From: Anaerobacillus isosaccharinicus
GTDB lineage: Bacteria > Bacillota > Bacilli > Bacillales > Anaerobacillaceae
Direction of reading: 5' to 3'
DNA: 64,000 nt
Assembly (NCBI RefSeq): GCF_001866075.3
Contig: NZ_CP063356.1
Coordinates: 1,664,164-1,728,163 of the forward strand
Shown: positions 10,057-39,235 of the stretch, in pieces
Numbering within the stretch: position 1 is the first letter of the stretch
Layout of the letters: the number at the start of each line of letters is the position of its first letter
The notes under the pieces: model-generated
Database searches by the model: none
What the model was told of the DNA's origin: nothing
What the model saw: only the letters and a program-made list of their open reading frames with translations
Program-made: the position numbers and the translations under genes

Positions 10057-10078
10057 ATATAATTCAAAAAGAGATGGC

Positions 10079-10170
10079 TGTTGTAGCTTTATAATAAAGT
10101 TCGATAATTAATAATAAAGTTTGATAGTTTTTAAAAAAGATTGATAATTTATAATAAAGATTGATAAAAA
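10079..10170 (+). repeat. Tn7-like right end: terminus plus four phased TnsB-type repeats
   Basis: After TGTTGTAGCTTT come four directly adjacent 20-bp units: 10091-10110, 10111-10130, 10131-10150 and 10151-10170. They share the pattern (A/T)TAA(T/A)AAAG(T/A)T(T/C)GATA. Tn7's right end likewise has four tightly packed TnsB sites. The same motif in opposite orientation marks the left ends near 32045-32141 and 38787-38936. Confidence 0.9.
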
Positions 10171-10209
10171 TAACCTCTTGGGATATTATGTCCTTAAGAG
10201 GTTATTTTT
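10166..10209. terminator. Inverted repeat between right end and tnsA, probable bidirectional terminator
   Basis: AAAAATAACCTCTT pairs perfectly with AAGAGGTTATTTTT around a 16-base loop, with A/T runs on both sides. It lies between glmS and tnsA. No terminator is visible between the glmS stop and the transposon end, so this hairpin inside the transposon probably ends the glmS transcript. Confidence 0.75.
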
Positions 10210-10250
10210 AATTTTCTGACACTTTAAAAGTGCATCTGGAGGTAAAAATA

Positions 10251-11090
10251 GTGGCTAAACGTAGCAGAACTAATGCTGTAGAAAAGAGACTTAATGACGG
10301 CCGGGGTCTAGGAATAGGTATAGATTATAAACCATGGCTTAAAATTCAAGATGTATCATCGCAAGGTAGGTCGACAAGGCTAAAAGGCATTAAGGTACCG
10401 CGCCAGTTTGAGTTTCTATCAGATTTGGAACGAAACTACTTTTATTTATTGGAATATTCCGACTATGTAGTAGATATACGTGAGCAGTATCCACTACTCC
10501 CTATTGAAGAAACATTATTAATTGCAGAAGAATTAGGTATTACTCATCCTAGAGATCCGAAAACGAAAGAACCTATTGTAATGACAACTGACTTTGTGTC
10601 GACTAAGCAAGTAAATGGAAAGCAAATAAACTACGCACGAACAGTTAAACCAAAAAGTGATTTAGCAGATAAGCGTGTACTTGAAAAGTTTGAGATAGAA
10701 CGTGCTTATTGGGAGCTACGAGAGATAGACTGGGGAATCGTAACGGAAGAAGAAATTGATAAAACAATGGCTCTTAATATAGGCTTCGTGCATTCATATA
10801 AAGAACTTAGTCATTTCGAAGGATTTGAATATATCACTGAAGATCAGTTAGAAGATTTAAGCGTTGTCTACGTTTCTAGAATGCTACAAGTTACAAATTC
10901 GATTCGGGAGATTTCGCAACAGTTTGAACGTGACTTTGATTTAATTTCTGGAAGTGGCATCAGCATTTTTAAGTATTTGATTATTAATAAAGTTATCGAC
11001 GTTAATCTATTAGAAAAGTTAGATGTAAATCAAATTATTTCAATTCAAACAATTAGAAAGGACTTTTCAGAGAAGGTGAGAGCAATATGA
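10251..11090 (+). CDS. tnsA: Tn7-like transposition protein TnsA (5'-end endonuclease)
   Basis: TnsA makes the 5' cuts that turn Tn7 transposition into cut-and-paste. The PD-(D/E)XK-like core is visible: E in FLSDLERNYFY (about residue 60), D in VMTTDFV (about 117) and K in TVKPKSDL (about 137), followed by the C-terminal winged-helix TnsA_C region. The start is the GTG at 10251, eight bases after GGAGG (10239-10243); the in-frame GTG at 10230 would lie upstream of that site. The stop overlaps the tnsB start (ATGA), so translation is coupled. The length of about 279 residues is close to Tn7 TnsA (273). Confidence 0.93.
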   Translation: MAKRSRTNAVEKRLNDGRGLGIGIDYKPWLKIQDVSSQGRSTRLKGIKVPRQFEFLSDLERNYFYLLEYSDYVVDIREQYPLLPIEETLLIAEELGITHPRDPKTKEPIVMTTDFVSTKQVNGKQINYARTVKPKSDLADKRVLEKFEIERAYWELREIDWGIVTEEEIDKTMALNIGFVHSYKELSHFEGFEYITEDQLEDLSVVYVSRMLQVTNSIREISQQFERDFDLISGSGISIFKYLIINKVIDVNLLEKLDVNQIISIQTIRKDFSEKVRAI

Positions 11091-13249
11091 TTTTTATTAA
11101 TCAAGTATATCAATATATCAATAAAGAAGAGAAAAATCGGATACGAATTATCGATATAGACGAACCGATTGTTTATTATGTAGAACTTCATGGAGATACA
11201 GCAATGCCTAAAAGATTTGCACTTGCTAACTTGGAAGCAGAAATACAGGGACAAGTCTTGCTTTCAATCCCTGATCCATATGCAAAAAGTTATTCGGATA
11301 AGGATTTAACATCGAAACAGATTGAAAAGAGAGATGCGGACTGGCAAGTTGTGAATGATTACTGGGAAGTAAACAAACATCAATTGCTAGAAAAAAAAAC
11401 ACGTGAAAATATATTTATAGAAATAGCAGACAAAACAAATATAAGTAAGTTGAAAATCAAACGCATCTTTACTCGCTTTTGGCAGCGTGGCTTAAATAAG
11501 AATGCACTTCTTCCAGACTATATGCACTCTGGTGGAAAAGGAAAAGAAAGGGACCTTTCAAATTCAAAAGTTGGACGACCTCGGAAATTTAACTTAGCAG
11601 ATGATGGACAACAAGGTATCAATTTTACTGATGAAGTTAAAAAGCAATTTGCTTATGTAATTAAGAAGTACTATCGTCAAAAAAATCAAATTACATTAGC
11701 TGAAACATACGATTATCTATTAAGAGAATTTTATTCAGATAAGTATCAAGAAAATAACGAAGTAAAATTTAACGTTTGGGATGCTTCCAGGGTTCCTACT
11801 TACAATCAATTTTATTATTGGTTCAAGAAGTATGAAGATCCACAATTGGATATTGTTATGAGAAAGAGTTCAAAGGAATACGACTTAAAACATCGTCCAA
11901 TCCTAAACAATTCTACAAATGAAACAGATGGTCCTGGGACTCGTTTTCAAATTGATGCCACAATCGCTGATATTTATTTAATTAGCTCATTTGACCGGAC
12001 ATTAATTATAGGTCGTCCAATTGTCTATGCAGTCATTGATGTCTACTCTCGTTTAATTACAGGGATCTATGTTGGTTTGGAAGGACCTTCTTGGATAGGT
12101 GCTATGATGGCACTAGATAATATGATGATAAACAAAGTTGAGTATTGCAGCCAATTTGGAATTCCAATTGAAGATGGACAATGGCCAGCTAGGCATTTAC
12201 CAGAAATAATCATTGCAGATCGCGGAGAGTTTGAAGGATATTCAGTAGAAAATTTAATCAATAACCTAAACATTAAAATTGAGAACACATCTGCTTATAG
12301 AGGAGATTTAAAAGGGATCGTGGAGCGTCAATTTCGAACAATTAACGGTAAGGTTAAACGTAAAACGCCTGGTGCGATTCAAAAAGAATTCCGTGAACGA
12401 GGAGATCGTGATTATCGTTTAGATGCGACCTTGAACTTACAAGAGTTCACAAAAGTTGTTATTCATCTTGTGTTAAACCATAACGAAAAAATTATCGATA
12501 AGTATCCACTTGAAAAAGGAATGATTACTAGCGGATTAACTGCAACGCCAATTAATCTTTGGAACTGGGGTATCGCAAATAAGAAAGGTCACTTACAAAC
12601 TATAACAAATAGAAGTGTATTTAGGTTAAACGTATTACCTAAAGGAAATGCAAGGATTACAAGGGCTGGTCTTAAATTTAAAAACCTGTTCTATGGCTCA
12701 GAAAAAGCAATGACAGAACAATGGTATGTAAAAAATAAAAATACAAGCATTGAGATTGTTTATGATCCACGAGACATGAATCAAATCTATATCCCGCATG
12801 TAGATGGCAGAAATTTCGATTCGTGTTACTTACTTAGCACTAGCGAACAATATAAAGGTGATACGTTAGAAGAAATTCAGTTCTATCAGGAGATGTTGCA
12901 AGAACTTAAAGCGAAACAAGTATCTGAACAACGTGAGAATGCTATAAATGCAGATGTCGCTATCGAAGAAATTGTGAAGTTGGCAATGAAGGAAAAGAAA
13001 AAAGTTGAACAACGACACATTAATAAATCTGAAAAGTTAAAAAACATTCGTGTGAATAGACAGGCTGAAAAAACGATAAATAGAGAAATTGAAAAATTTG
13101 ATTTAAATCCAACTGTTCCATCTGAAAAAGCTGATGTGATTGACTTTGGTACGAAAGAAAAATTGAATGAGAAACCAGCTCAGACAAACAATTCACGCCT
13201 GTTTGAAAAATTGAGAAAGAAAAGAGATGAGGAATTTGAAAGAGAATGA
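11087..13249 (+). CDS. tnsB: Tn7-like transposase TnsB
   Basis: TnsB binds the end repeats and makes the 3' cuts and joins. The 720 residues carry an N-terminal DNA-binding region and a Mu/retroviral integrase-type DDE core: D in RFQIDATIADIYL (about residue 291), D in IIADRGEFEG (about 379) and E in GIVERQFRTINGK (about 412). A Mu-type C-terminal beta domain and a long charged, coiled-coil-like tail (residues about 640-720) follow, the region expected to contact TnsC. The overlaps with tnsA (4 bp) and tnsC (23 bp) show a compact operon. Confidence 0.95.
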   Translation: MIFINQVYQYINKEEKNRIRIIDIDEPIVYYVELHGDTAMPKRFALANLEAEIQGQVLLSIPDPYAKSYSDKDLTSKQIEKRDADWQVVNDYWEVNKHQLLEKKTRENIFIEIADKTNISKLKIKRIFTRFWQRGLNKNALLPDYMHSGGKGKERDLSNSKVGRPRKFNLADDGQQGINFTDEVKKQFAYVIKKYYRQKNQITLAETYDYLLREFYSDKYQENNEVKFNVWDASRVPTYNQFYYWFKKYEDPQLDIVMRKSSKEYDLKHRPILNNSTNETDGPGTRFQIDATIADIYLISSFDRTLIIGRPIVYAVIDVYSRLITGIYVGLEGPSWIGAMMALDNMMINKVEYCSQFGIPIEDGQWPARHLPEIIIADRGEFEGYSVENLINNLNIKIENTSAYRGDLKGIVERQFRTINGKVKRKTPGAIQKEFRERGDRDYRLDATLNLQEFTKVVIHLVLNHNEKIIDKYPLEKGMITSGLTATPINLWNWGIANKKGHLQTITNRSVFRLNVLPKGNARITRAGLKFKNLFYGSEKAMTEQWYVKNKNTSIEIVYDPRDMNQIYIPHVDGRNFDSCYLLSTSEQYKGDTLEEIQFYQEMLQELKAKQVSEQRENAINADVAIEEIVKLAMKEKKKVEQRHINKSEKLKNIRVNRQAEKTINREIEKFDLNPTVPSEKADVIDFGTKEKLNEKPAQTNNSRLFEKLRKKRDEEFERE

Positions 13250-14921
13250 AAGTATTGTAGTCCTCAAAGGTGATTTTGAAACTGCACAATATAAATCTCA
13301 GTCACTTTCTGAATACCAACATAATCCTTTTATAGAGGCACTTCCTCCGATTTTTGATGAGGATGATGTGATGGAACGGTTTATGGTAACACCGCGGATT
13401 ACAAAGCAAGATAAAGAGCTGGAACCTAATATTCGTTACCATACCTTAAAGCGAGTAAAAAACTTCATTCAGCCTTTGCCAATTCATTTTTTGGTTGAGC
13501 GCAGATTGTCTACGCTTATTAGGCGAGGTTACTTAGCAAGAAATCCATTAGATAAAACATTTCTTGAACGTATCCGTGTATTGAATGAGCTTCAGTCAGA
13601 AGAGGAAAGTTCAATCAAAAGTATTGATGAGAGACTCAATCATATTCGTTCAACGGCAGATAGCTTATCTATTATTGGTATTTCTGGTATTGGTAAAACA
13701 ACAGCGATTGAACGACTCCTGCTCTTGTATCCGCAAGTTATTAATCATCAAGAATATAATAGTCAGTCCTTTAATCGCACGCAAATTGTATGGTTGAAAA
13801 TAGATTGTCCATACGATGGAAACCTTTCGACGTTATGTAAAAGCTTTTTTAAAGCAATCGATGGATTACTAGGTACTCGTTATCTTGAGAAATTTGGATA
13901 TTTAAACCGTGTGACATCTACTATGCTTTTGCATATGACATCGTTAGCAAGCATGTATGGCATTGGCGTTTTAGTCATTGATGAGATCCAGCACTTACTA
14001 CATTCTAAAAATGATCAAGAAGAAATGCTAAACTTCTTTGTCACACTGTCTAATACAGTTGGTATCCCAACGGTCCTAATCGGTACTTCCAAAGCGCAAA
14101 AGCTATTTAAAGGGAATTTTAGACAAGCAAGACGAGCGGCAAGTGATGGGTCAATTATTTGGGATCGCATGGCTGAGGACAGTGAGGAATGGCAGTTCTT
14201 TTTAGAAACACTATGGGAATTGCAGTGCTTAAAAACACGTTCTGATCTCACTGAGGAAGTAAAAGAGGCATTTTATTATGAATGCCAAGGGATTACAGCC
14301 GTTGCTGTAAACTTGTTTATTTTAGCGCAGGAACGAGCGTTATTTGATGAAGATAATCCGAATGAAATCATCACTAAGCAAGTTCTAAAAAAGACCGCTA
14401 AAGAAGATATGCAAACGATTCAACCAATGATGAAAGCGATTCGTACTAACAATTTTGCTGACATGATGAAATATGAAGATATCATGATTAACTTAGATGA
14501 AGTGATGCTGAATCATAGAAGAAATACAGAAATTACAGGTCGTATTCAAGAAGCGTTTAAGGAAAGACAGAATACGATTGATTTCAAACGTCAAAATACA
14601 GTAGAAAGTTTAGTTGTGGAATTATGTTCACTAGGCATTTTCGATGTCTTAAAAGAGGCAGCTATTAAGAAGTTAGTTCAAGGAATTGTTGAAAGGCAAC
14701 CGTTGGAGACTGATTATAATATTCTAAAAGCTGAAGCTCTCCAAGAGGCACTTACATTGAATCAGCAGGAGAAGGAACAAAGAAATAAACCGAGAGCTAA
14801 AATCGTAGATGTATTGCCATTATTAACATTTAGACAAAAGGCATTGGACAAGCAAAAGCACCCGTATGAATTGTTGAAAGCAAGTGGATACATTAAAAAT
14901 CCATTGGAGGAATTCTATTAG
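13227..14921 (+). CDS. tnsC: Tn7-like AAA+ regulator TnsC
   Basis: TnsC is the ATP-dependent adaptor linking a target-site protein (TnsD or TnsE) to TnsAB, and the mediator of target immunity. Walker A is GISGIGKTTAIE (about residues 152-163) and Walker B is VLVIDEIQHL (about 249-258), followed by sensor motif IGTSKA. The 564 residues resemble Tn7 TnsC (555). The start overlaps the tnsB 3' end by 23 bp with GAAAAGAGATGAGG around the ATG. A separate strand-transfer activator is not needed, as tnsD and tnsE follow directly. Confidence 0.94.
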   Translation: MRNLKENESIVVLKGDFETAQYKSQSLSEYQHNPFIEALPPIFDEDDVMERFMVTPRITKQDKELEPNIRYHTLKRVKNFIQPLPIHFLVERRLSTLIRRGYLARNPLDKTFLERIRVLNELQSEEESSIKSIDERLNHIRSTADSLSIIGISGIGKTTAIERLLLLYPQVINHQEYNSQSFNRTQIVWLKIDCPYDGNLSTLCKSFFKAIDGLLGTRYLEKFGYLNRVTSTMLLHMTSLASMYGIGVLVIDEIQHLLHSKNDQEEMLNFFVTLSNTVGIPTVLIGTSKAQKLFKGNFRQARRAASDGSIIWDRMAEDSEEWQFFLETLWELQCLKTRSDLTEEVKEAFYYECQGITAVAVNLFILAQERALFDEDNPNEIITKQVLKKTAKEDMQTIQPMMKAIRTNNFADMMKYEDIMINLDEVMLNHRRNTEITGRIQEAFKERQNTIDFKRQNTVESLVVELCSLGIFDVLKEAAIKKLVQGIVERQPLETDYNILKAEALQEALTLNQQEKEQRNKPRAKIVDVLPLLTFRQKALDKQKHPYELLKASGYIKNPLEEFY

Positions 14922-14933
14922 GAGGCGATTGAG

Positions 14934-16799
14934 ATGCTACCATTCTTTACAGAGCCATATCCAGATGAATTGATTTACTCAGCAATTGCACGTTATCACT
15001 TTTACAGTGGGAATCTTGACTGCAAAGATACGTTGGAAGAAGTATTTCAAAGTCGAACTGTAATACCAAGTTTAGAGATTGGTAGCCATTTTACTAACCT
15101 CGTTACTCAAATAGGTACAAACTATTCCGTAGAAAAATTAGTATCTGAACATACGATTTATCCTTACTATGCCCCACTTTTAACAAGTATGAGACAACAG
15201 CAAATTATGCAAGATGTTATAGGCGATGGAAAAGGGCTATATGCCAGGTTAGGTATGGTTGCAGGTGGTATCTGTAAAAAAGATGGACTCTATTATTGCT
15301 CACAATGTTCAAAAAACGATATTGAACGTTTTGGCGAACCCTATATTCATAGAGAGCATCAACTTCAAGGAATTAATTTATGTGCTCATCATTCTCTACA
15401 CCTAAAGAAATACCCAATCGATTTTACGATAAGTAGTAGAATTGAATTTATTCGATTTGAGCATAAAAAAATGGATTTATCTGTGTTACAAGGTGGACAG
15501 GAAAAGTATAGTGATCTTGAAGTACAGTTAGCACGGATGGCATATAAGTTCTTAAAGGTGAATATTAGCAAGTTCTCAAGAGAAAAAATCGTTAATAAAT
15601 ATCGTGCATTACTTCGTGAAAGAGGCTATATCACGACCGCAAATCATGTGAGACAACAGGATTTGCACAAAGATTTTTTAAAAAAGATACCTAATGATTT
15701 TCTGGAAACGTACGATTCGTTTTTGGATATAGATGATGAATATAACTGGTTGAAAGTATTGACTAGGAATATAAAGCGTCATGTACATCCTATACGTCAC
15801 TTATATTTTCTTTGTTTTTTAGAACAAGACATTGAACGTTTTCTTGAGGAAGTAACGGAAGATCAAGGACCTTTCGGAACTGGACCGTGGCCTTGTTTAA
15901 ATAAAGCTGCTAATCACTATAAACGACCGGTGATTAAAAAGGTAACTGTTACAAGAGATTATAAATCCAAGGCTCCTATTGGTACGTTTGAATGTACATG
16001 TGGTTTTGTTTACGCGAGGAAAGGTCCTGATCAGTTTGCTAACGATCTATATCATATCGGCCGAATCAAAGTTTTTGGTAACGTATGGAAAGCTAAATTA
16101 ATAGAATTAGAGGCGGAACAAACATATAGCATAAGAGCATTAGCAAAAATGTTGGGTGTGGATTCTAAAACAATAAAGAAGTATTTGCAATCAGAGGAGG
16201 ATAAATCTAAATCTAGTATGGATAGCACTTCACAATTAGAACTACCCCGACAAATCGTTTTGAATGGTATAAACTCACATCCTGATCATTCACGAACAGC
16301 TATTCGCAAGCTGTTTCCTAAGGAATACATGTATCTTTATCGTTACGATAAAGAATGGTTATTAGAACGACTGCCGAATAAAAAAGCTCCAGTTCAGTCA
16401 AAGGGAAAGATAGATTGGTACGTTCGAGATCTAGAGTATATGAATAAAATGAAAGCGCTTCATAATGAACTGATATCTTTAGAGAAGCCTGTTCGTATTA
16501 CAAAATCGCTAATCGGAAAACGTCTTGGAATAGTAGCTAACTTAGAAAATCATCTTGATAAACTGTCTCTGACTGCGACCTATCTAAATAAAATATGTGA
16601 GTCGGTGCAAGCCTTTCAGATTAGGAGATGCTGTAAGATAATTAATCGAATGATTAAAAATGAAGAACCGGTATTGTTGTGGAAAGTACAGAGATTAGGT
16701 GGCGTGAAATCCCATCATTTTCATGAAATTAAATCGATATTGGAATCATATTTATGTCAAAGACAGGAAGTGGATTGCCATGACCAAACAACAAGTTAA
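14934..16799 (+). CDS. tnsD: TnsD/TniQ-family attTn7 targeting protein
   Basis: This protein recognises the 3' end of glmS and directs insertion just downstream. The N-terminal TniQ domain (PFFTEPYPDELIYSAIARYH) is followed by a zinc cluster, CSQC...HREHQLQGINLCAHH (about residues 122-153), a second cysteine pair in GTFECTCGFVYARKG (about 350-365) and C-terminal helix-turn-helix-like segments (YSIRALAKMLGVDSKTIKKYL). At 621 residues it is longer than Tn7 TnsD (508). A clear AGGAGG precedes the ATG. Its presence beside an element actually sitting at attTn7 supports the assignment. Confidence 0.92.
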   Translation: MLPFFTEPYPDELIYSAIARYHFYSGNLDCKDTLEEVFQSRTVIPSLEIGSHFTNLVTQIGTNYSVEKLVSEHTIYPYYAPLLTSMRQQQIMQDVIGDGKGLYARLGMVAGGICKKDGLYYCSQCSKNDIERFGEPYIHREHQLQGINLCAHHSLHLKKYPIDFTISSRIEFIRFEHKKMDLSVLQGGQEKYSDLEVQLARMAYKFLKVNISKFSREKIVNKYRALLRERGYITTANHVRQQDLHKDFLKKIPNDFLETYDSFLDIDDEYNWLKVLTRNIKRHVHPIRHLYFLCFLEQDIERFLEEVTEDQGPFGTGPWPCLNKAANHYKRPVIKKVTVTRDYKSKAPIGTFECTCGFVYARKGPDQFANDLYHIGRIKVFGNVWKAKLIELEAEQTYSIRALAKMLGVDSKTIKKYLQSEEDKSKSSMDSTSQLELPRQIVLNGINSHPDHSRTAIRKLFPKEYMYLYRYDKEWLLERLPNKKAPVQSKGKIDWYVRDLEYMNKMKALHNELISLEKPVRITKSLIGKRLGIVANLENHLDKLSLTATYLNKICESVQAFQIRRCCKIINRMIKNEEPVLLWKVQRLGGVKSHHFHEIKSILESYLCQRQEVDCHDQTTS

Positions 16800-18315
16800 A
16801 ATCGCATGGCCTTATGATAAAGGTGAGAAAGCTAAACTAATTTGGATTGGGGAACCATTTCCAAAAGACAACAAAGCGATGATTTATGCTTATTTTCGTG
16901 CAGGTGGGCGCACAGAAAAAGTGCTGATGGATTGGGGGACATTGCCTTGTCTGGCTATTCAACACTACTACACAGATGGAATTATGACTGCTAGTCAGGC
17001 TCCGGAAGGCATAAGTGAAATAGATATAACCATCTATCCTAATGATGTAAAATATTATGAAAGGTCTTGGACTATTCAAGGTAGTACTGATTTTGCAATG
17101 TCTCGAAGTTTTGTATTTTCTTACAACGGCAAAAACGTAATAATGCCAGTTATAGAGGTTGTTCGTAGTATTCTTGCTCCAAACGGCTTCTTGCTATACC
17201 GATTGCTTGAGTCTAACTCATTTCCCTTATATTTTGTCGAAACCAATACTCCTCAGCAAATACATCTTAGCTTTTCTTCACGTTATGAAAAGAAGTATAC
17301 ACAAAAACAGTTTGTGTACCAATTAGCGTGGTTGTTATCAAACAGAGATGTACGGTCGGCTTTTGAAAATATAGCGTTCACTTGGCTTCAAGAGCAGTCA
17401 ATAAAGTTTGAATGGAATTTTACTCAGCCAATTACAGTATCTATGAGAGCAAAAGAGATAAAAAATACCCTAACAGTTTTAGAAATCATAAGTGTGAAGA
17501 ATAAAAAGATTCCATATAAGTCAATTTCAATTTCACATCCAGAAATACGCGATCAGGAGAAATCGAATGATCCTAAAAAGTACACGTATCGTCATCTTAG
17601 TAAAGGTCAAGGAGAAGACGGATTTACTCTTGATGAAGAAGTAGACGGCGCAACAGAAGACTTTGACCTTGTTCAAATGAACCAATTACAACACGAGTAT
17701 TCATCTACTCCGAAAATTGAACGAATTAAAGGTAAACCAACAAAGCAAAGGACGAACGAAGATGAAAACACGAAAAAATATTTTATTGATGATGATTCAA
17801 TTCGTTCAACTGCGGACAGTGGAGGCCAGCAATTAGCACGAGGTTTGGAGCATCAAATGCTTGATGAAGTTCGGGCACAAGGTGAGTTGCAAGATTTTAT
17901 TAATGTACTAAAACTGATGGAGCAGTATCCCAGAATAGGCACAATACAAGTAATTATGGATGTGTTGCCAGATGGTCATGGAGAACGTAGATTTACGAAA
18001 TTGAGTGATAATGTCACTAAACGGCGTTATGTAATTGCTGAAGTGTATTTGGGGAATGGAAAACAATTTAACGTTATAGAAATTGAACGGGAAAATCGTT
18101 CCTTGTCGATGTTAATCTTATCATCATCTGCAATCCATGATTGGAAACCTATTTATGATCGACTACTTGTAAATCTTGTGAATGATAGTGGTACATGGAC
18201 AAGTAAGTCATTGAAGAATATTGAAAATCAAGGCATTACAGTAATGAAAGCTAAACACAGCTCTAAAGGCGTTCAGCATAGGGCAGAGGTTTTATTGAAT
18301 AAATTAGTTTACTAG
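16780..18315 (+). CDS. tnsE: TnsE-like targeting protein
   Basis: In Tn7, TnsE directs transposition to conjugating plasmids and lagging-strand DNA through the sliding clamp. I assign this 511-residue protein by position (fifth gene of tnsABCDE), by length (Tn7 TnsE is 538) and by its C-terminal half (DFINVLKLMEQYP, RRYVIAEVYLGNGKQFNVIE, MLILSSSAIHDWKPIYDRLL), which has the look of the TnsE C-terminal domain. The start is the ATG at 16780 behind AGGAAG; it overlaps tnsD by 20 bp. The nearby plasmid-derived sequence fits plasmid targeting. Confidence 0.85.
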   Translation: MTKQQVKIAWPYDKGEKAKLIWIGEPFPKDNKAMIYAYFRAGGRTEKVLMDWGTLPCLAIQHYYTDGIMTASQAPEGISEIDITIYPNDVKYYERSWTIQGSTDFAMSRSFVFSYNGKNVIMPVIEVVRSILAPNGFLLYRLLESNSFPLYFVETNTPQQIHLSFSSRYEKKYTQKQFVYQLAWLLSNRDVRSAFENIAFTWLQEQSIKFEWNFTQPITVSMRAKEIKNTLTVLEIISVKNKKIPYKSISISHPEIRDQEKSNDPKKYTYRHLSKGQGEDGFTLDEEVDGATEDFDLVQMNQLQHEYSSTPKIERIKGKPTKQRTNEDENTKKYFIDDDSIRSTADSGGQQLARGLEHQMLDEVRAQGELQDFINVLKLMEQYPRIGTIQVIMDVLPDGHGERRFTKLSDNVTKRRYVIAEVYLGNGKQFNVIEIERENRSLSMLILSSSAIHDWKPIYDRLLVNLVNDSGTWTSKSLKNIENQGITVMKAKHSSKGVQHRAEVLLNKLVY

Positions 18316-18325
18316 ATATTACTAG

Positions 18326-20152: not shown

Positions 20153-20175
20153 ATTACTAGGTAGGAGATGAAATT

Positions 20176-20979: not shown

Positions 20980-21232
20980 TGCCTGTGTAAGGCTGCTGAA
21001 ATGTGATGTAATAAACAATAGAATAATTTAAATTAAGCAAACGACAACATTTTTTCCTTTGATTTATGAGAACTATTTGTATGATCAGAATACTGGATAA
21101 TTGCTGGGCAAGTTCTAACGTTGAAAAGATGATTTAAAAAGGTTATGCAACAAGTGTGTTTAAATTAAAATTGAGTATATCAGAAAAATTATCATTAATT
21201 AATGTATATAGTAATCTAAAACTGGGCCGCAA
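20980..21232. other. AT-rich gap between Shedu and the IS21 left end
   Basis: I see no open reading frame with a ribosome binding site, no terminator hairpin of note and no repeats matching the transposon ends in this interval. Confidence 0.5.
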
Positions 21233-21305
21233 TCGCAACAGAAAATTCCCCCACTGATATAATAAACCCACAGGATTAATTTACAAATCATGTGGGGAGT
21301 TGAAA

Positions 21306-26698: not shown

Positions 26699-26719
26699 TT
26701 ATGGAAAGCTTTCCATAAG

Positions 26720-27148: not shown

Positions 27149-27175
27149 ATATAATAAATTAGGAGATTAAGAAAA

Positions 27176-27514: not shown

Positions 27515-27595
27515 AATTCATCAGTCCCCTACCATAAATGTAAAAATTAGGTGGGGGACTTTTCAATTAACATTTGGGGGAATTTTGAGTTGACA

Positions 27596-30194: not shown

Positions 30195-30202
30195 ATAGAG
30201 GA

Positions 30203-32044
30203 ATGAATTATATGGTGATTTCAATTGATGCATGGAAACCAAGTGATGGACTAGTTCTGGAAACGACAGCATTAAAGTCAATCAGAGATTTAAAAAATTC
30301 TCTAGTTACTGCAGGACCTGGAGCAGGTAAAACTGAACTCTTAGCACAGAAAGCATGTTTTTTATTAGAGACCAATAGTTGTGTTAATCCTAAAAAAATT
30401 TTGGCGATAAGTTTTAAAAAAGATGCAGCAGCCAACTTAAAAGATAGGGTGAAGATGCGAATATCTAATAATTTAGAAACAAGATTTATATCTCAAACGT
30501 ATGATTCTTTTTCTAAGGGGGTATTAGATAGATTTTTATATGCACTTCCTGAAGAATATAGACCAGTTGAGGATTATGTTGTTGCTACAAATGACAATGA
30601 ATTTGTTAAAGCCTTTGGTGAATGCGGAATTAATCTTTCAAACAGAAAACTGAAAAACATTTATATAAATAATTTAACTAATTCTAAGCTTCCGAATAGC
30701 TTAGAATTATACGATTTTGTCTGGAAAAAATTATTGCAGGGCGATGTTAATATTAAACCAACTTTAAATTTTTCAATGATTACGCTTTTAGCAATTTATA
30801 TTTTAGAAACTAATCCGATGATTTTAAAATCTCTAAGGACAACATATTCACATATTTTTCTAGATGAATTTCAAGATACGACGTATTTACAATATGAAAT
30901 AATAAAAACATGTTTTGGAGGTGCGAAAACCTCTCTAACAGCTGTGGGAGATAATCGGCAAAGAATAATGTTATGGGCTGGAGCAAAGCACGATGTATTT
31001 AAGTGTTATAAAAGGGATTTCAATTCACAAGAATATACATTAATTATGAATCATAGGTCGGCTCCAAGATTATTAGAAATACAAAAAATAGTTAATAATT
31101 ATTTACAAGATGAACCATTCACGCCTCTTCCTAATCCTAGATGGTCTGAGGACGAGGGGTCCGCAGAAATATGGTATTCTTCAGATTCAACTATAGAATC
31201 TGAACATATCGCTAAAAGAATAAGCGATTTAATAAATCAACATCAAGTTCCGTTTAGAGATATCTGTATTATAGTAAAGCAAAGCGTACAGCAATATAGT
31301 AATGAAATTATAGAAACATTAGAAAAATTTAATATTCAAGCTAGGAATGAAACTAAATTTCAAGATTTACTAAAAGAAGATATAGTGTTACTTATTATTA
31401 ATACACTTAGATCAGCTTTGAATGCTAGAGATAGCGACGCATGGTTATTTATATGGAATTCTCAAATTTTCTTTGAAGGTAAAAACGGAACAAAGAATCA
31501 GCTTATAGTTGATAATATGAGAAAACAATTGAAAGGTTTTTTAAGGTATATAAAAAATAAATTAGATTTGATTACTGATAAAGAAGAATTGAGTTCTTTG
31601 TTTATTGATATAATAGCCTTTTATGATATTAATAAAATAAAAAAATACTATCCTCAATATTCACAAGGTCAATATATTAATAAATTAAGAGAAGATTTAA
31701 CAGAGTATATGTATGTATACTTTGAAAAAAGTAATGATTGGATATTAGCTATTAATTCATTCGAAGGTATTCATTCAATTCCAATAATGACTATCCATAA
31801 GTGTAAGGGGCTAGAATTTGAAGCGGTATTTTTCGTAGGATTTGACGATAATGCGTTTTGGAGTTTTTCTAATCAAGAAGATGAAGATACGTGCACATTT
31901 TTTGTGGGACTTTCCCGTTCTAAACGATATTTATATTTTACATTTTCAGAGAAGCGTTTCGGTAGAAACTGTAATAATTTTAAGATTTCAATATTATATC
32001 AGATGCTACATGAATCTGGCGTTGTTGAGGAAAAATATTACTAA
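30203..32044 (+). CDS. gajB: Gabija-like GajB: UvrD/PcrA-type helicase
   Basis: Superfamily 1A helicase motifs are present in order: motif I AGPGAGKTELLAQKA (about residue 38), motif II FLDEFQDTTYLQ (about 225), motif III TAVGDNRQRI, motif IV-like NHRSAPRLLEIQ, motif V TIHKCKGLEFEAVFF (about 530) and motif VI VGLSRSKRYLYF. In Gabija the helicase pairs with GajA to sense and cut phage DNA. At 613 residues it exceeds the described GajB (494). The start is either the ATG at 30203 or the one at 30212 (better spacing from AGAGG). The gene ends exactly where the first transposon left end begins. Confidence 0.8.
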   Translation: MNYMVISIDAWKPSDGLVLETTALKSIRDLKNSLVTAGPGAGKTELLAQKACFLLETNSCVNPKKILAISFKKDAAANLKDRVKMRISNNLETRFISQTYDSFSKGVLDRFLYALPEEYRPVEDYVVATNDNEFVKAFGECGINLSNRKLKNIYINNLTNSKLPNSLELYDFVWKKLLQGDVNIKPTLNFSMITLLAIYILETNPMILKSLRTTYSHIFLDEFQDTTYLQYEIIKTCFGGAKTSLTAVGDNRQRIMLWAGAKHDVFKCYKRDFNSQEYTLIMNHRSAPRLLEIQKIVNNYLQDEPFTPLPNPRWSEDEGSAEIWYSSDSTIESEHIAKRISDLINQHQVPFRDICIIVKQSVQQYSNEIIETLEKFNIQARNETKFQDLLKEDIVLLIINTLRSALNARDSDAWLFIWNSQIFFEGKNGTKNQLIVDNMRKQLKGFLRYIKNKLDLITDKEELSSLFIDIIAFYDINKIKKYYPQYSQGQYINKLREDLTEYMYVYFEKSNDWILAINSFEGIHSIPIMTIHKCKGLEFEAVFFVGFDDNAFWSFSNQEDEDTCTFFVGLSRSKRYLYFTFSEKRFGRNCNNFKISILYQMLHESGVVEEKYY

Positions 32045-32141
32045 TTTTAATCAATCTTTTTTCAAAATGAATGGTTTTCTTCCTAATTATAAAATCATCG
32101 TTAGCGGTAGCCTTTTAATCAAACCTTATTCCAAACCAACA
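32045..32141 (-). repeat. Tn7-like left end A (two TnsB-type sites and CCAACA terminus)
   Basis: Sites TTTTAATCAATCTTTTTTCA (32045-32064) and TTTTAATCAAACCTTATTCC (32113-32132) match the reverse complement of the right-end repeats. The terminus AAACCAACA ends at 32141. The whole 97-bp block aligns with the end-proximal part of left end B (38842-38936), including the GGTGGTTTTC-like middle and nearly identical site-to-terminus spacing (96 and 95 bp). It starts one base after the gajB stop. Confidence 0.82.
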
Positions 32142-32166
32142 GCATATTTATTGTGGAATAAGTTAA

Positions 32167-32331
32167 AATAAATTAAGAGAGAAATATTATTTTGAATTAT
32201 CAGATATTAACTTCCGGATATTTGGTGAATATTTTAAAAAATGGATTGCAAAATTTCTTAAATATAACAACGCAGATTTAAGAGTATTTGAAAAAACAAT
32301 CGACCGTATAGAACAAATGTTCTATAATTGA
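32167..32331 (+). pseudogene. Possible 3' remnant of an unrecognised gene
   Basis: An open frame of about 54 codons without a start codon runs to a TGA at 32329-32331 just beyond left end A. It has a protein-like composition (FRIFGEYFKKWIAKFL, DLRVFEKTIDRIEQMF). It could be the tail of a gene truncated by the transposon end or chance. I recognise no family. Confidence 0.3.
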
Positions 32332-32364
32332 ATTAACAAATACTCTTGTAGGAGGAATGGGCAA

Positions 32365-34377
32365 ATGAATAAAAATATAGATCTAAATGATAACAATTTA
32401 GACTTTTTAGATAAAGAAGACTTATTAAAGATACTTAAAAATATGGTGAATGGAGGGGTATCTCTAAGCTTTTACGGAAAGCGAACAGCAGAAGAGATTT
32501 ATAAAAAGGTAAGACCAAGAGTAACTCGTGTTAATAGAAAATTATGTGTAGGAACTGAAGAACAGCAGGCTAAAAATATAATTCTTGAAGGCGAAAATCT
32601 TCAAGGTATGGTCACATTGTATAAATATAGAGAACAAGTAGATTTAATTCTTACAGATCCACCGTATAATACTGGGCATTATTTCCGTTATAACGATAAG
32701 TGGGATAGTGATCCAAATGACCCGGATCTAGGAACTTTAGTTTCTGAAGATGATGGCTCTAAACATACAAAGTGGATGAAAGCGATGATGCCACGCCTTC
32801 ATATGATGTGGAAAATGCTTAAACCAACCGGTGTTATTGCCATATGTATTGATGATAATGAACTATTTCACTTAGGAATGATGATGAATGAAGTATTTGG
32901 TGAGGAAAATAGAATAGGGATTATTAACTGGCAAAAGTCTTATGCTCCTAAAAGTGATAGCAAACATATGTCTACTGGTACAGAATATGTGCTGGTATAT
33001 GCAAAGGATAAATCATTAGCCAAGACAGGACTTCTACCAAGGGGTGATACTACTAATTCAAAGTATAAGAATCCAGATAAGGATCCTGAAGGACTTTGGA
33101 GAAATGATAATGCTACTGTAGCAACAGTGGTTGAGAAAGATATATATGCAATTCAATCACCTTTTACAGGAGCGTTACATTACCCTGGAGCGAGAGCTTG
33201 GTCCTTCCCAAAGAAAACAATGAAAGAATGGTTAGAGCAATGGGGCTCAAAATATATTGAGAAGTCTATTGAAGATGGTCGTGTTAGTGCTTTAGTAATT
33301 AAAGATGCCCCTATTCCAACTATTCCTTTAGATAGAAATTTAGAGAATAATCCGGTAGTTGAAAGTGAAGATGTATTTCATTCACCAGTTATCCAATTAT
33401 CAAGGGAAGCAGCAAATAATATCATGCAAAATAATGTGTGGCCAACACTATTTTTTCCTAATAATGGATATGGTAGACCTGCAATCAAAAGATACTTAAA
33501 AAATGTTAAAAGGGGGAAAGTCCCTTTAACATATTGGGGCGATGACAATTATGATACCCCCTTTGAACTGGGAACTCAATCCTGGAATTATGAAGAATCT
33601 GGGCATAGCCAGACCGGTATCAATGAGCTCGATGAAATAGTAGGGAAGGGACATAAGTTTCAAACTGTAAAACCTTTAAAGTTAATGAAAAAAATTATTC
33701 AACTTTGGTGTTCTTCTGATGGGTTGGTACTTGATCCTTATGCTGGTTCAGGAACAACTGGACATGCAGTGTTGGAATTAAACCAAGAAACTGAGGCGAA
33801 AAGGAAATTTATTCTAATTGAACAAGGCAATTCTGAAAAAGGTGACAAATATGCTAGAAGTTTAACCCAAGAAAGAATCCGTAGAGTAATAACTGGTGAG
33901 CGTCCTGATCAGAATGGAGTTCTTGTACAAAAACATAAATCAATTAATAGTGGTTTTGAATTTAGAATTCTTACAAAACAGATTGATGCAAGCACGGTAC
34001 TTACAATGAAAAAAGATGAATTAGTAGATTTGGTAATTACATCCCATTGGGAAAATGAAAGAAGATCTAGTTCTAATTTGATAAGAATAGAAAATTCTAA
34101 GTGTCGCTACTTGGTAGGGAAAAATGATGACAACGAAGGTTATTTTATTATTTGGAATGGTGATGACCAAGTAGGACAATTGGATTTAGAAACATACGGG
34201 ACTATTATTGAAGAAGCTAAGAGAGAGAAATTAAATGGTCCATATCATGTTTATGCAAGGTATGAAGTTTTTCAATCAAATAGTGTTAAGTTTTACAAAA
34301 TACCAGATAAAATTTTAGCTCATTTAGGATTAAATGAAAATAGTGATCCCTATAATGAGACTGAAGGCGAGGAGTAA
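32365..34377 (+). CDS. mod: Type III restriction-modification methyltransferase (Mod)
   Basis: This is an adenine-N6 methyltransferase of the beta class: the catalytic DPPYNTG motif (about residue 97) precedes the SAM-binding FxGxG-type motif LDPYAGSGTTGHAVLEL (about 455-471). A target-recognition region lies between and after them. Mod both modifies DNA and reads the asymmetric site for the Res subunit. The start is supported by AGGAGG 8 bases upstream. res follows 3 bp later with the same orientation. At 670 residues it is within the usual Mod range. The recognition sequence cannot be predicted from this reading. Confidence 0.92.
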   Translation: MNKNIDLNDNNLDFLDKEDLLKILKNMVNGGVSLSFYGKRTAEEIYKKVRPRVTRVNRKLCVGTEEQQAKNIILEGENLQGMVTLYKYREQVDLILTDPPYNTGHYFRYNDKWDSDPNDPDLGTLVSEDDGSKHTKWMKAMMPRLHMMWKMLKPTGVIAICIDDNELFHLGMMMNEVFGEENRIGIINWQKSYAPKSDSKHMSTGTEYVLVYAKDKSLAKTGLLPRGDTTNSKYKNPDKDPEGLWRNDNATVATVVEKDIYAIQSPFTGALHYPGARAWSFPKKTMKEWLEQWGSKYIEKSIEDGRVSALVIKDAPIPTIPLDRNLENNPVVESEDVFHSPVIQLSREAANNIMQNNVWPTLFFPNNGYGRPAIKRYLKNVKRGKVPLTYWGDDNYDTPFELGTQSWNYEESGHSQTGINELDEIVGKGHKFQTVKPLKLMKKIIQLWCSSDGLVLDPYAGSGTTGHAVLELNQETEAKRKFILIEQGNSEKGDKYARSLTQERIRRVITGERPDQNGVLVQKHKSINSGFEFRILTKQIDASTVLTMKKDELVDLVITSHWENERRSSSNLIRIENSKCRYLVGKNDDNEGYFIIWNGDDQVGQLDLETYGTIIEEAKREKLNGPYHVYARYEVFQSNSVKFYKIPDKILAHLGLNENSDPYNETEGEE

Positions 34378-34380
34378 AAA

Positions 34381-36684
34381 TTGAATCTTTTACCGTTTCA
34401 GATAGAGGCATCGACTAAAATTGCAAATAGATTTGTTGAATATATGGTGGACCCACTTACAGTTACTAGAACTAAAATAGTACCATTTTATCAAAACCTT
34501 ACTTCAATTACAGGGAGTGGAAAAACGTTAATTCTCGCAGATGCAATCGAACAAATAAGATGTCTACTTCCAGTGGAACCAATAGTACTTTGGCTTTCGA
34601 AAGGAAAAGTCGTTGTTTGGCAAACCTATACCAATTTATCATCAGGTAAGTATTCAAATTTACTTGGGGGCTTCAATGTCAAACCGCTCCTTGATGCCAA
34701 TAAGAGAGACATAGAGTCACTAGATTCCGGCTTACTTTTAGTAGCCACTGTAGGTAAATTTAATCAAAAAGATAAAGAACAAGGAGATAGAAAAATTTTC
34801 AGGGTGCAATTAGACAGTGCTGATGATTCTTTATGGAATCTATTAAAAGAGCGTCAGAATGCAAAAGGTATTAAAAGACCGTTGGTAATAATATACGATG
34901 AAGGGCATAATCTTTCTGATCAGCAAACTAATCTTTTGTTGGAACTAAATCCAGATGCTTTAATTGCAGCTAGCGCAACAATGAAAGTACCCCAGTCTCT
35001 ATCAAATACTATTGATAGACTTACGGTGGATAAAGGTTGGAAAGATGAAGACTTCTATACTAGTGTAAAAAGTTCAAGTGTTGTTGAATCAGGGTTGATA
35101 AAACAAAATTTGTTATTGGGAGGATATTTAACACCAATGGAAATGGCCATAGATGACATGGTGTCAAATATTGAAAAGGTTGAGCAACAGTGTCAAAAAC
35201 TTAATCTGAGGTTTAGACCAAAAGCAATTTATGTTACTAATACCAATGTTATATCTGGTACAGAAAAAGATGACATTAAACAACCTTTTGATGATAGGAA
35301 AGCTAGGCCTATTGTAATATGGAAATATCTTGTTGAGTACAAAGGGGTTAATCCTTCTGATATAGCCGTGTATTGCAATTTGAAGTTCGATAAAAAATTC
35401 CCTTTGCCAGAAAATTTTCATCTTTTTTCAGGTGGTGATTCGGACTATGATGATTTTATGTCTGGAAATTTTACTCATATCATATTTAACCAAACATTAC
35501 AGGAGGGGTGGGACGATCCTTCAGTTTACTTTGCCTATATTGATAAAGATATGGGGTCACAAATACAAGTTACTCAGATTATTGGAAGAGTATTAAGACA
35601 ACCTGGAGCGACTCATTACGCATCTGAAGAGTTAAATACTGCCCATTTTTTTATAAGGGCAGATGAAAAAAATACATTTGAAGAAGTATTACGAGAAGTA
35701 AAGGAAAAGATCACCGCAGATTCTCCTGAGATCAATCTTACTTACTATAAAAAAGGTACTAGTCAGGATAATCCGATTATTAAGCCTAAATGGAAACTAC
35801 ATGTTCCTGAAATATCAATTAACTCGCAATATGCCCAAAAGCCAATAAAAGAAATAACGGATAGAATACAAGATTTCAGATATGATACTGTTAATACAGT
35901 TGGCAAAGGTGGGCGAATTCAGGTTCTACAATCTATCGGCGCAGATAATGACAATCAAGAGGAATGGGTTGAAGTTGATCATAGTAACCGTGTATCTGCA
36001 AGATGGGTATTTATAAGAGAAGCCCAAAAAACATATGGAAAAGCTGTAAATCTATGTGATATTGAAGATCCGAAGCTAGATGCATTAGTAGAGTTTAGCA
36101 GCAATGCGGCAGAGCATCTAAGAGAATTAGCAAATAAGGTTGTTAAGACATATATTGATCATTCTAGTGTAATGCAAAATAACTACAATTTACTAGAAGT
36201 ATCTTCTATTCCAATAAACCAAGGCGAAATGATAAGATATAGAAACTCAGTGCATGAAGGATATAGTGGTCTAAATAATTTAGAAAAAACATTCGCTAAA
36301 GCTATAGATAACAGTGGGTTAAAGTGGCTTAGAAATCAATCCAGGGGTTATTTTGAAATACCACTGCTTGATTTAGCAGGAAATAATAATTTTAATCCGG
36401 ATTTTATTGTGTGGAGTGAAAAATCAATAATTGCTATAGATACAAAAGGAGATCATTTGATTTCTCAAGATTCAGCTACTAAACTTTTTCATCTTGACTC
36501 GATTGGACCTGGAAAACCAGTTAAGATTCGCCTTGTAACTGTAGGAGAATGGGATGATGAAAGAACTAAACGTGGTAAGCAAGGATACACTGTATGGGTA
36601 TTAAAGAATGGTAAGATAAGGCCGATATGGTGCAAAGATGTTGAAAGCGCAGTTTCCATTTGTGTAGAGAGTGAATTTTATTAA
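34381..36684 (+). CDS. res: Type III restriction endonuclease subunit (Res)
   Basis: This is the ATP-dependent translocase/nuclease partner of Mod. Superfamily 2 motifs: Walker A SITGSGKTLILADAI (about residue 47), DEGHN box VIIYDEGHNLSD (about 172), SAT in IAASATMKVP, and motif VI QIIGRVLRQPGA (about 402). A C-terminal PD-(D/E)XK nuclease is visible as NPDFIVWSEKSIIAIDTKGD (about 673-692). The start is a TTG at 34381, three bases after the mod stop and preceded by GAGGAG. All motifs are present, so the type III system appears intact. Confidence 0.92.
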   Translation: MNLLPFQIEASTKIANRFVEYMVDPLTVTRTKIVPFYQNLTSITGSGKTLILADAIEQIRCLLPVEPIVLWLSKGKVVVWQTYTNLSSGKYSNLLGGFNVKPLLDANKRDIESLDSGLLLVATVGKFNQKDKEQGDRKIFRVQLDSADDSLWNLLKERQNAKGIKRPLVIIYDEGHNLSDQQTNLLLELNPDALIAASATMKVPQSLSNTIDRLTVDKGWKDEDFYTSVKSSSVVESGLIKQNLLLGGYLTPMEMAIDDMVSNIEKVEQQCQKLNLRFRPKAIYVTNTNVISGTEKDDIKQPFDDRKARPIVIWKYLVEYKGVNPSDIAVYCNLKFDKKFPLPENFHLFSGGDSDYDDFMSGNFTHIIFNQTLQEGWDDPSVYFAYIDKDMGSQIQVTQIIGRVLRQPGATHYASEELNTAHFFIRADEKNTFEEVLREVKEKITADSPEINLTYYKKGTSQDNPIIKPKWKLHVPEISINSQYAQKPIKEITDRIQDFRYDTVNTVGKGGRIQVLQSIGADNDNQEEWVEVDHSNRVSARWVFIREAQKTYGKAVNLCDIEDPKLDALVEFSSNAAEHLRELANKVVKTYIDHSSVMQNNYNLLEVSSIPINQGEMIRYRNSVHEGYSGLNNLEKTFAKAIDNSGLKWLRNQSRGYFEIPLLDLAGNNNFNPDFIVWSEKSIIAIDTKGDHLISQDSATKLFHLDSIGPGKPVKIRLVTVGEWDDERTKRGKQGYTVWVLKNGKIRPIWCKDVESAVSICVESEFY

Positions 36685-36915
36685 TTATAAGTGTTGATAT
36701 GATTAATTTGAACAGAACAGTTTGTCAATTAACAGCTTCAAGACTTCTACATAGGAATATTTGGTTATGAAAGCCCAGTCGATTATAAACGTGAACACCT
36801 TAAAAAATTTTTCTAGTTTATTGTTGACAATCCAGGATAACGAATAAATATGTAATTAATATTGTTATAATATGCGATTGGTTTAATTACAAATTGTAAA
36901 TTGGTGGTGGAACTT

Positions 36916-38735
36916 GTGAAATTAAAATCTATAAAATTACGTAATTTTAGAGGCTATAAAGCCCCGATAAGTGTAGAATTTGAAGAATTAACAGCTTTCA
37001 TAGGGAAAAATGATGCCGGTAAATCTACAATTTTAGAAGCTTTAGAAATATTCTTTAATAATTCAATGATTGTATGTGAAAAAGAGGATTTAAGTGTGGA
37101 TGCTGAGGATGAATTTATTGAGATTTCGTGTGTATTCTCAGATCTCCCACAAAAAATTACTCTGGATACATCTTCAGAAACTACTCTAAAAGCTGAATAT
37201 CTTTTAAATGCACATAACGATTTAGAAATAAAAAAGGTTTATAAAGCCACTGCAGCAAAACCAAAACCCAGTATTTATATTGTTTGCAATCACCCTAATA
37301 TTGAACCTTATAATAATTTATTAACTTTGAAAAGAACGGATTTAAAGAAATTAGTTGGGGAGTTAGGTATCGATAGTAGTAAGTATAATGCCAATAATAA
37401 TGCAAGTCTGAGAAGCGCAATTTGGCAGAATGCCAGCGAGTTAAATTTGCAATTAACGGAATTACTAGTTGATAAAGAAGACTCTAAAAAAGTTTACGAA
37501 TCCTTGGACAGATTCCTACCGATTTATTCGTTGTTTCAATCTGATCGACCGAGCAAGGATAATGATAAAGAAGTAACAGATCCGATGGGATTAGCAATTC
37601 AAGAAGCATTAAAAGAACTAAATAGTGAAATCGATAAAATAAAAAAAGAAGTAAGAAATAAGGCTATAGAAACAGCTAATCGTACACTGGGAAAATTGAA
37701 GGAAATGGATAATGAACTGGCTTCTACATTAACACCAGAATTTAAATCTGAACCTAAATTTGATTCGCTGTTTAAATTAACTATTCAGTCAGATGATGGA
37801 ATATCAATAAATAAACGAGGAAGTGGTGTAAGAAGGCTAATCCTTTTAAATTTCTTTAGAGAGAAGTCGAAAGGAAACTTCAAGAAAGTTCATCTCAAAA
37901 TGTAATCTATGCCTTTGAGGAACCAGAAACATCCCAACATCCAAAGCATCAAGAAATGCTGATAAATTCATTCTTGCAATTAGCATATAATACTAATTCT
38001 CAAGTTGTACTAACAACCCATACTCCTGCTTTAGCTGGTTTATTACCATTAGAGAGTTTAAGATTTGTTACGAAAGAAGACGGTAAGAGGATCATTAAAT
38101 TCAATGAAGAAAGCGTGTATGAAGAGATTGCTGATACATTAGGGTTATTGCCAGAGCCAATTAATAATAAAACAAAGGCATTATTATTATTAGAAGGTCA
38201 AGGAGATGTGGTGTTTATACGTCATTTATGTGAGAAGCTTAAAGAAGGGGATGCAATTCCTATAACGCTTCAAGAAAGCGGATTTGCATTTATTCCTACA
38301 GGTGGTTGTGGGAATTTGAAAGCTTGGAAAACATTAAAATTAGCTGAACAATTTAATGTACCATGGTGTGTACTTTTAGATTCAGATTTGCCTACACCTG
38401 AGGCTCAAAAAAATAAAGACACAGTAAGTAATTTAAGAAAACAAGGAATTAAGGCATATTTGACTAGAAAAAGAGAACCAGAGAATTATTTACACTTGGG
38501 TTGTTTTGATTTTTCTTTTACAATTAACGATTATGATGATGCAAAAGTAATAATTAATCAACAAACAGGTGTAGCAAAAGTAAAGGTATTAGAATATTTT
38601 TGGCCTAAAATGTCATTTGAACAAATTAGAGAAATGGAAGGCTTTAGAGATGATGATGGTGAGACAAAATACGAATTCACAGAGATGATATTAGATTTTC
38701 TATCTTTAGTCCGTTCACCAGTACCAGTAAATTAA
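36916..38735 (+). pseudogene. OLD-family ATPase/TOPRIM nuclease, frameshifted
   Basis: The first part (to 37905) has ABC-ATPase Walker A in FIGKNDAGKSTILEALE. The second part (from about 37868) has Walker B in VIYAFEEPETSQHP, a TOPRIM E in LLLEGQGDVVFIRHL and DxD in VLLDSDLPTPEA. The two lie in different frames. Reading E-K, then skipping to ERKLQESSSQNVIYAFEEPE, restores continuity, so a single-base deletion near 37868 is likely; it is not in a homopolymer. The start is the GTG at 36916 behind GGTGGTGG. Intact length would be about 607 residues. No helicase partner is adjacent, unlike Gabija. Confidence 0.82.
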
Positions 38736-38786
38736 ATTTTCTTTAGAAACAACTTCGCTTTCAGTACATAAAGAGATAGAATGATT

Positions 38787-38936
38787 TTTTAATCAATCTT
38801 TTTTATAAAATTAAATCTATATCAAAACAAAACCCCACTCATTTTGATCAATCTTTTTTTCAAAACGGGTGGTTTTCCTTATTATAAAAATAACGTTTTC
38901 AGTAATCTTTTAATCAAACTTTAATCAAAACCAACA
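38787..38936 (-). repeat. Tn7-like left end B (three TnsB-type sites and CCAACA terminus)
   Basis: Three spaced sites match the reverse complement of the right-end repeats: TTTTAATCAATCTTTTTTAT (38787-38806), TTTTGATCAATCTTTTTTTC (38842-38861) and TTTTAATCAAACTTTAATCA (908-927 of the 38 kb line). The terminus CCAACA ends at 38936; its reverse complement TGTTG equals the right-end terminus. Three separated sites is the established layout of Tn7's left end. Confidence 0.85.
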
Positions 38937-39235
38937 TTTCAAGAACAGACTTACACCGAATTTTAATGAATTGGCAAGGTGAATTCACAATTACAAAGTT
39001 GCATATGGGTATTGCTTCAATTGAAATGAGTTATTCCTTCTATGATGTAGATTTAATTAACAGTGAAAAATTGATAGAAGATATTGAAAAGATATATGAT
39101 CAACCTTTTAAGATAGAATATAATCCAATGAAAAAAATAGCTAAATTTTCATTTAAAGTTGAAAGTGAAAACATTAATCATTTTATGAGATTTAAGAATT
39201 TAATAGTAAATATTGACCGAAAAGCAGTAATTTAG
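38937..39235 (+). pseudogene. 3' part of an unrecognised gene abutting left end B
   Basis: An 89-residue frame begins at an ATG at 38966, but there is no ribosome binding site and the same frame stays open upstream through ISRTDLHRIL right up to and into the transposon end. I therefore read it as the 3' part of a gene cut by the transposon. Visible features are mixed alpha/beta (IEMSYSFYDVDL, KIAKFSFKVESENI), with no recognisable family. Its missing 5' part would mark the other junction of the insertion. Confidence 0.5.

Follow-up and report, generated by a model that had tools for sequence, protein, structure and literature searches.

A plasmid-derived segment behind glmS of Anaerobacillus isosaccharinicus, probably delivered by composite Tn7-like transposition

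Introduction

Large blocks of foreign DNA in bacterial chromosomes are usually ascribed to integrases, insertion sequences or recombination. Here we analyze a 64,000-nucleotide stretch of the Anaerobacillus isosaccharinicus chromosome (the window; C1:1664164-1728163), in which a TnsE-encoding Tn7-like transposon behind glmS runs into plasmid-derived DNA. C1 is contig NZ_CP063356.1, the single contig of 5,227,144 bases that makes up this genome, and window coordinates are C1 coordinates minus 1,664,163. The sequence examined comprised the window with 20 kb upstream and 140 kb downstream. At this locus, a pair of transposon ends with matching flanks, located at the position usual for the Tn7 attachment site (attTn7), encloses part of a plasmid, and a second tns operon lies behind. 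We propose that a Tn7-like transposase probably carried this plasmid DNA into the chromosome in one step, using a left end other than the transposon's own.

Results

The 3′ end of glmS (window 8203..10056, forward strand) is the Tn7 attachment site, and it is followed by an insert of 159,816 bases (C1:1674245-1834060), after which native chromosome restarts at C1:1834061. The insert is delimited in this way because its borders carry sequences resembling the paired arms of the terminator hairpin of glmS, AAAGAGATGGC before the first right end and GCCATCTCTTT after the last left end, and because the native flank lies near glmS in congeners. Specifically, the counterpart of C1:1834193-1835111 sits about 1.6 kb after the glmS match of one congener (G001), and later parts of the same flank lie about 18 kb after that of another (G003). 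The terminator was also sought at 29 other glmS loci of relatives, which carry different sequences there, so the empty attTn7 site can only be inferred from our genome.

Four right ends (RE1 to RE4) and four left ends (A, B, LE2 and LE3) lie within this island. We called them by scanning for TnsB-like sites and by aligning ends with one another, following the rule that Tn7-like ends are bounded by TGT...ACA, which was then tested on control elements. To obtain these controls, the 269-bp mini-element described below was searched against 397 genomes of the order, 128 of which gave a match at E<=0.001, the majority of the matches listed covering one end only. From the match list we picked, by eye and non-exhaustively, seven right/left pairs whose two members share a contig, together with two mini-elements and four places where a left end adjoins a right end. 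With ends defined by the TGT...ACA rule, the 5-bp flanks agreed in all seven pairs (GGAAG, ACTAC, CTGGA, TATGG, AATTG, GCTGA and GCTTT, as confirmed by script).

RE1 (10082..10170, forward strand; start C1:1674245) starts with TGTAGCTTT, contains four TnsB-like sites and is flanked by GCTGT. Its start was placed by alignment to another right end and by its distance from glmS, 25 nt past the stop codon; five other measured right ends lie at 25, 25, 25, 25 and 26 nt (25 nt in G123, G019 and G312, and 25 and 26 nt at the two of 29 other glmS loci where a right end was recognized by pattern). The initial annotation had put this right end at 10079 with ATGGC outside it; the true start is 3 bp further in, and ATGGC would be the original flank of an older element's right end, RE4. 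Its other end assignments hold, as does its statement that the right flank differs from both left ones: left end A (32019..32141, reverse strand; end C1:1696304) is followed by GCATA, and left end B (38787..38936, reverse strand; end C1:1703099), the border between this first transposon (element I) and the plasmid DNA, is followed by TTTCA. Left end A, an inner end whose flank does not match that of RE1, lies 6.8 kb inside left end B, and no right end was seen between them. Outside the window are RE2 (start C1:1813674, flank ATGGA at C1:1813669-1813673), LE2 (end C1:1813942, flank GCTGT), RE4 (start C1:1813945), RE3 (start C1:1832054, flank CTGAT) and LE3 (end C1:1834060, flank GCAGA). The native chromosome expected after the final left end is thus present, and the flank there is GCAGA rather than the ATGGC that had been anticipated.

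Among the 16 right/left combinations, RE1 and LE2 are the sole pair with matching flanks. GCTGT stands at 10077..10081 and again at C1:1813943-1813947, it is absent at left ends A, B and LE3, and the two ends carry the identical terminal TGTAGCTTT. RE1 is 22.1 kb from left end A, 28.9 kb from left end B and 139.7 kb from LE2, the RE1-LE2 span measuring 139,698 bp. Whereas these outer flanks agree, the inner flanks at the two plasmid borders, TTTCA at left end B and ATGGA at RE2, differ, although TTTCA had been predicted beside the next right end. Agreement of 5 bp by chance has a probability of about 0.0015 per pair and 0.025 across the 16 pairs formed by four right and four left ends. Because matching flanks are found in all seven control elements, RE1 and LE2 most likely bound one transposition unit, consisting of a full transposon, 110.6 kb of plasmid DNA and the mini-element. 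More than one left end near a single right end was also seen at G362:C1:871282-874930 and in G226:C6; in G362, TGTTC stands next to two left ends and CCGTT next to the right end.

Element I carries tnsA, tnsB, tnsC, tnsD and tnsE at 10230..18315 (forward strand), with all frames open. Domain matches include the TnsA N and C domains, Mu-transpos_C, TniB/AAA, TnsD (7.9e-101) and TniQ, and tnsE is an open reading frame (ORF) of 530 aa that matches TnsE_C at 9.9e-13. Together with the plasmid genes beyond, the complete tnsABCDE set bears out the initial view that a TnsE-encoding Tn7-like element joins plasmid-derived DNA to the chromosome.

The plasmid DNA runs from left end B to RE2 (C1:1703100-1813673, 110,574 bp), its window part being 38937..64000. 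It encodes Replic_Relax (48652-49725), an Alp7A-type actin (53407-54582), a topoisomerase, a TraG-like coupling protein, ERF, DUF6744, MoxR, VWA and a large helicase, and a tyrosine recombinase gene lies at C1:1811456-1812631. The first two of these had been recognized initially along with a VirB11-like ATPase. Beyond left end B the window has 32 ORFs of 80 aa or more; among the 28 that were scanned, and in the part covered of one more, none matched such a family. The coupling protein is uncommon, occurring in nine of the 397 genomes at E<=1e-40, our own included. A scan of the genome contigs with the coupling protein gave no relative, and a scan of those with TnsE gave six loci. Gene order in the segment largely follows that of NZ_CP034542, a circular plasmid of Brevibacillus marinus, of B. 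laterosporus pAZOBL1, and of contigs G319:C39, G278:C11 and G030:C25, which may be plasmids as well.

We describe this segment as an arc because its first gene is cut at left end B and because a transfer block is absent. The gene at 38937..39235 (forward strand) lacks its 5′ end, as first noted: its product lacks 19 N-terminal residues relative to the homolog at G319:C39:61701 and 10 relative to that at G278:C11:51155. The homology to the G319 gene is weak (1e-05) and is supported by the neighboring genes, the next gene matching the next gene of G319 at 4e-17. On the other side of this homolog, G319 carries a transfer/secretion block of 19 ORFs of at least 100 aa. All 19 are shared with G278, where one extra gene lies between, and none is found in our arc, whereas the adjoining 1-62 kb of the G319 contig share 30 of 51 ORFs with it. 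The block is present in four relatives; in B. laterosporus it comprises 24 ORFs, 20 of which match B. marinus, 15 G319 and none our arc. Further along G319 (85-123 kb), 6 of 28 ORFs match the arc, and at least three of these six belong to insertion sequences or encode recombinases. A search with the secretion ATPase gave one weak match elsewhere in our genome, at C1:5214292 (1.5e-7), probably a chromosomal relative. For the last small ORFs before RE2, five related plasmids or contigs offered no convincing homolog. In an outside nucleotide search with three pieces of the arc, no near-identical plasmid appeared: among the matches listed, one piece met Tn3-type DNA, one only transposase-type pieces and one nothing. 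The same plasmid backbone in G030 holds, at G030:C25:15881-23930, a tns-less segment with a Tn7-like right end and a left end whose tip has decayed.

Between the arc and RE4 lies the mini-element RE2-LE2 (C1:1813674-1813942), which is 269 bp long and gene-less. A second copy of it, RE3-LE3 (C1:1832054-1834060), is interrupted by a DDE transposase gene, and the two are 91% and 90% identical over two aligned pieces; a third near-complete copy was not found among the 40 of 78 candidate places that were scored. The longest identical run between the RE2-LE2 mini-element and the first transposon copy is 25 bases, with left end B, and with RE1 it is only 13. Of the two control mini-elements, the one in G120 (C2:119900-120400, about 290 bp, gene-less) has the 5-bp duplication TCTAA on both sides, judged by eye, and is a miniature inverted-repeat transposable element-like unit with Tn7-type ends. 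The one in G078 (C34:97900-98400) stands directly after another left end, with a gap of 3 bp.

The second tns operon follows LE2 (C1:1814071-1821254) and has its own right end, RE4, so that the two together occupy C1:1813945-1821254; beyond them come RE3-LE3 and the native chromosome. Both operons have the same orientation, on either side of the plasmid DNA. Compared over windows of 300 bases, the two are 57-73% identical in tnsA/tnsB, 96-98% in tnsC and 88-96% in tnsD/tnsE; the switch is sharp and falls near window position 13,075, around the tnsB/tnsC border. The longest identical run is 119 bases, and the second operon is short of about 870 bp across tnsD/tnsE. The operons are therefore mosaic, and recombination between such elements must have occurred at some time. 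As direct repeats, they could allow RecA to excise about 140 kb.

Only 2 bp separate LE2 from RE4, which resembles the serial attTn7 arrays seen elsewhere, where left-right gaps judged by eye are 4, 5, 6 and 5 bp at the four control junctions and 3 bp at a fifth, in G078 (a further junction in G189 has a degraded right end and was excluded from the count). The GCTGT copy on the right extends over the TGT tip of RE4. Before this insertion RE4 would therefore have directly followed AGATGGC, and the RE1-LE2 span would thus be the last arrival, placed ahead of an older island. We infer that the older island goes back to two or more earlier insertions, with a deletion having occurred between them; its GCAGA would fit positions 21-25 of the reconstructed empty site, the same position as GCTGT.

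Discussion

We propose that the plasmid DNA arrived through a single composite, or left-end-skipping, Tn7-like transposition into attTn7, and we put the probability of this at roughly 0.78, given the matching 5-bp flanks with their clean control, the usual attTn7 position and the missing part of the plasmid. A free plasmid would have carried the full transposon (RE1, tnsABCDE, cargo and left end B) at a TTTCA site, to which TnsE may have delivered it, and, in the same orientation, the 269-bp mini-element RE2-LE2, presumably itself mobile in this host, at an ATGGA site. Two separate insertions bounding the piece would leave just such a partial plasmid. The transposase is predicted to have paired RE1 with the distant LE2, bypassing left ends A and B. 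TnsABC with TnsD would then have moved the whole 139,698-bp span into attTn7, duplicating GCTGT, and the span would have landed immediately before an older Tn7-like island that had already been rearranged, presumably losing an internal junction through deletion. An intact TnsA is expected to give the cut-and-paste Tn7 reaction. As for the choice of ends, the available text of a review states that a Tn7 element bounded by right ends on both sides is functional, unlike one bounded by left ends, the right end being special (PMC11406308), and it is therefore plausible that a right end could pair with any of several left ends.

The initial annotation had attributed the junctions to homologous recombination between transposon copies at attTn7 and on a plasmid, which would have fused the whole plasmid to the chromosome; one version puts the crossover within the tnsC-tnsE block that both operons share. 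The plasmid DNA does lie between two directly oriented tns operons, tnsC-tnsE are highly identical with runs to 119 bases, and the second tns copy that this model expected further on exists, although as a separate older element whose flanks misfit it. Fusion of this kind would place a full second transposon at the right edge of the plasmid, where there is only the 269-bp mini-element, and TTTCA beside a later right end, whereas none found has it and the next is flanked by ATGGA. It would also leave ATGGC after the final left end, where we find GCTGT (LE2) and GCAGA (LE3), and would bring in the transfer block, of which 0 of 19 ORFs are present, though earlier or later loss is possible. A crossover in tnsC would need parental elements with mismatched flanks (GCTGT/GCAGA and ACAGC/TTTCA), against seven of seven matching controls, and the GCTGT match and the 2-bp LE2-RE4 spacing would both be coincidences. 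With RE4 and its operon beyond LE2 and flanks that disagree, a crossover does not seem to fit as the cause of the plasmid junction; we regard this recombination as unlikely and composite transposition as the more likely of the two.

Inside-out transposition is very unlikely in our view, as are recombination of the mini-element with left end B or RE1 through short end repeats and any other mechanism acting next to an existing mini-element. The 25-bp stretch shared by left end B and the mini-element would offer a substrate, but short identical stretches recombine poorly, RE1 shares only 13 bases in a row, and both inside-out transposition and exchange at a single repeat predict equal 5 bp at the two plasmid junctions, where TTTCA and ATGGA are found. 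Judged from the assembled sequence, misassembly of an independent plasmid into the chromosome seems the least probable explanation: each join coincides precisely with a transposon end, the outer flanks agree, the arms of the terminator fit together and a single 5.2 Mb contig makes up the genome. An integrative and conjugative element was considered and rejected, since Tn7-like ends form its borders and it lacks the transfer block, no dedicated search for att repeats having been made.

Several points weigh against composite transposition. The 5-bp match by itself carries the chance of about 2.5% over all 16 pairs. The flanks of the older island disagree (ATGGC, as reconstructed, at RE4 and GCAGA at LE3), which is why an extra deletion step is needed. 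Left end A, possibly the trace of an earlier round of end skipping, is not accounted for by the model, and the G362 and G226 loci, where two left ends occur, gave no clear additional example. The G078 mini-element lacks matching flanks (CATCT and AAAAA), though it is possibly another instance of outer-end use. The missing transfer block could reflect an older or later loss. A whole-genome search with the block's DUF87 ATPase was empty, a weak negative since it had no positive control, although the same protein strongly matches its G278 and B. laterosporus homologs in a local search. Finally, a donor plasmid with both insertions was not found.

The order tnsABCDE, the TGT...ACA ends, the arrays of TnsB-like sites, the 5-bp duplication, the position about 25 nt past glmS and the defense cargo are all as in Tn7 and Tn7-like elements at attTn7. 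What differs is that the left boundary is supplied by a separate mini-element, gene-less and 111 kb past the transposon's own left end, and that the cargo is a plasmid arc. In the available text of the survey by Benler et al. (2021; PMC8649781), the median lengths of Tn7-like elements are 14-29 kb and the longest element reaches 140 kb, so that our span of 139.7 kb is about as long as the longest, and insertion inside or next to another element is noted as a possible source of multiple left and right ends. BCEGI-1 of Bacillus cereus ATCC 10987 is likewise a serial Tn7-like island with two tnsABCD sets after glmS, but neither a plasmid arc nor outer-end pairing is described in the available text of that report (PMC2359905). 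As in composite transposons built from two insertion sequences, the outer ends would mobilize the DNA between them and the duplication stands at the outer ends only; here, however, the partners are a Tn7-like element and a mini-element, and delivery is TnsD-directed and site-specific. The arc shares Replic_Relax, topoisomerase, the TraG-like coupling protein, S1, SSB, DUF6744, a MoxR-type ATPase and VWA in collinear order with NZ_CP034542 and pAZOBL1, differing in being partial, without the transfer block, and chromosomal. By analogy, a donor might look like a Bacillus cytotoxicus plasmid that, in the available text, lacks about half of its relatives' content, including the secretion region, with a Tn7-like element situated where the missing part would join (PMC8725734). 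Our search of the literature, which was shallow and mostly without subscription sources, found no description of Tn7-like elements whose outer ends pair and so move a plasmid arc.

The outer duplication and the missing part of the plasmid point to a site-specific transposase shifting 110 kb of plasmid to a harmless site by means of a spare end. It is tempting, and for now speculative, to suggest that Tn7-like transposons grow by left-end skipping, a single strong right end pairing with left ends at increasing distances, and with gene-less mini-elements scattered over plasmids acting as portable capture ends that lift plasmid arcs to glmS, which would amount to a general RecA-independent route from plasmid to chromosome. 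If general, such a route would account for oversized Tn7-like islands and for plasmid genes near glmS, and the idea can be tested with the ends and genes of this genome.

Other features of the locus

Within the arc, C1:1732327-1742603 holds a Tn3-type transposase of 984 aa and, after it, another that is accompanied by a P-type metal ATPase; part of the latter stretch shows 95% identity with a plasmid of Bacillus licheniformis. The cargo of element I (18574..38735) is dense in defense genes from 20176 to 38735: Shedu, Gabija GajA and GajB, type III restriction-modification, and a pair of AriA/OLD-like and TOPRIM genes. It also contains an IS21 insertion sequence (21300-27148) whose istB is in two pieces (22895-23341 and 26732-27148), interrupted by three consecutive tyrosine recombinase genes on the opposite strand, an insertion that resembles a 'recombinase in trio'.

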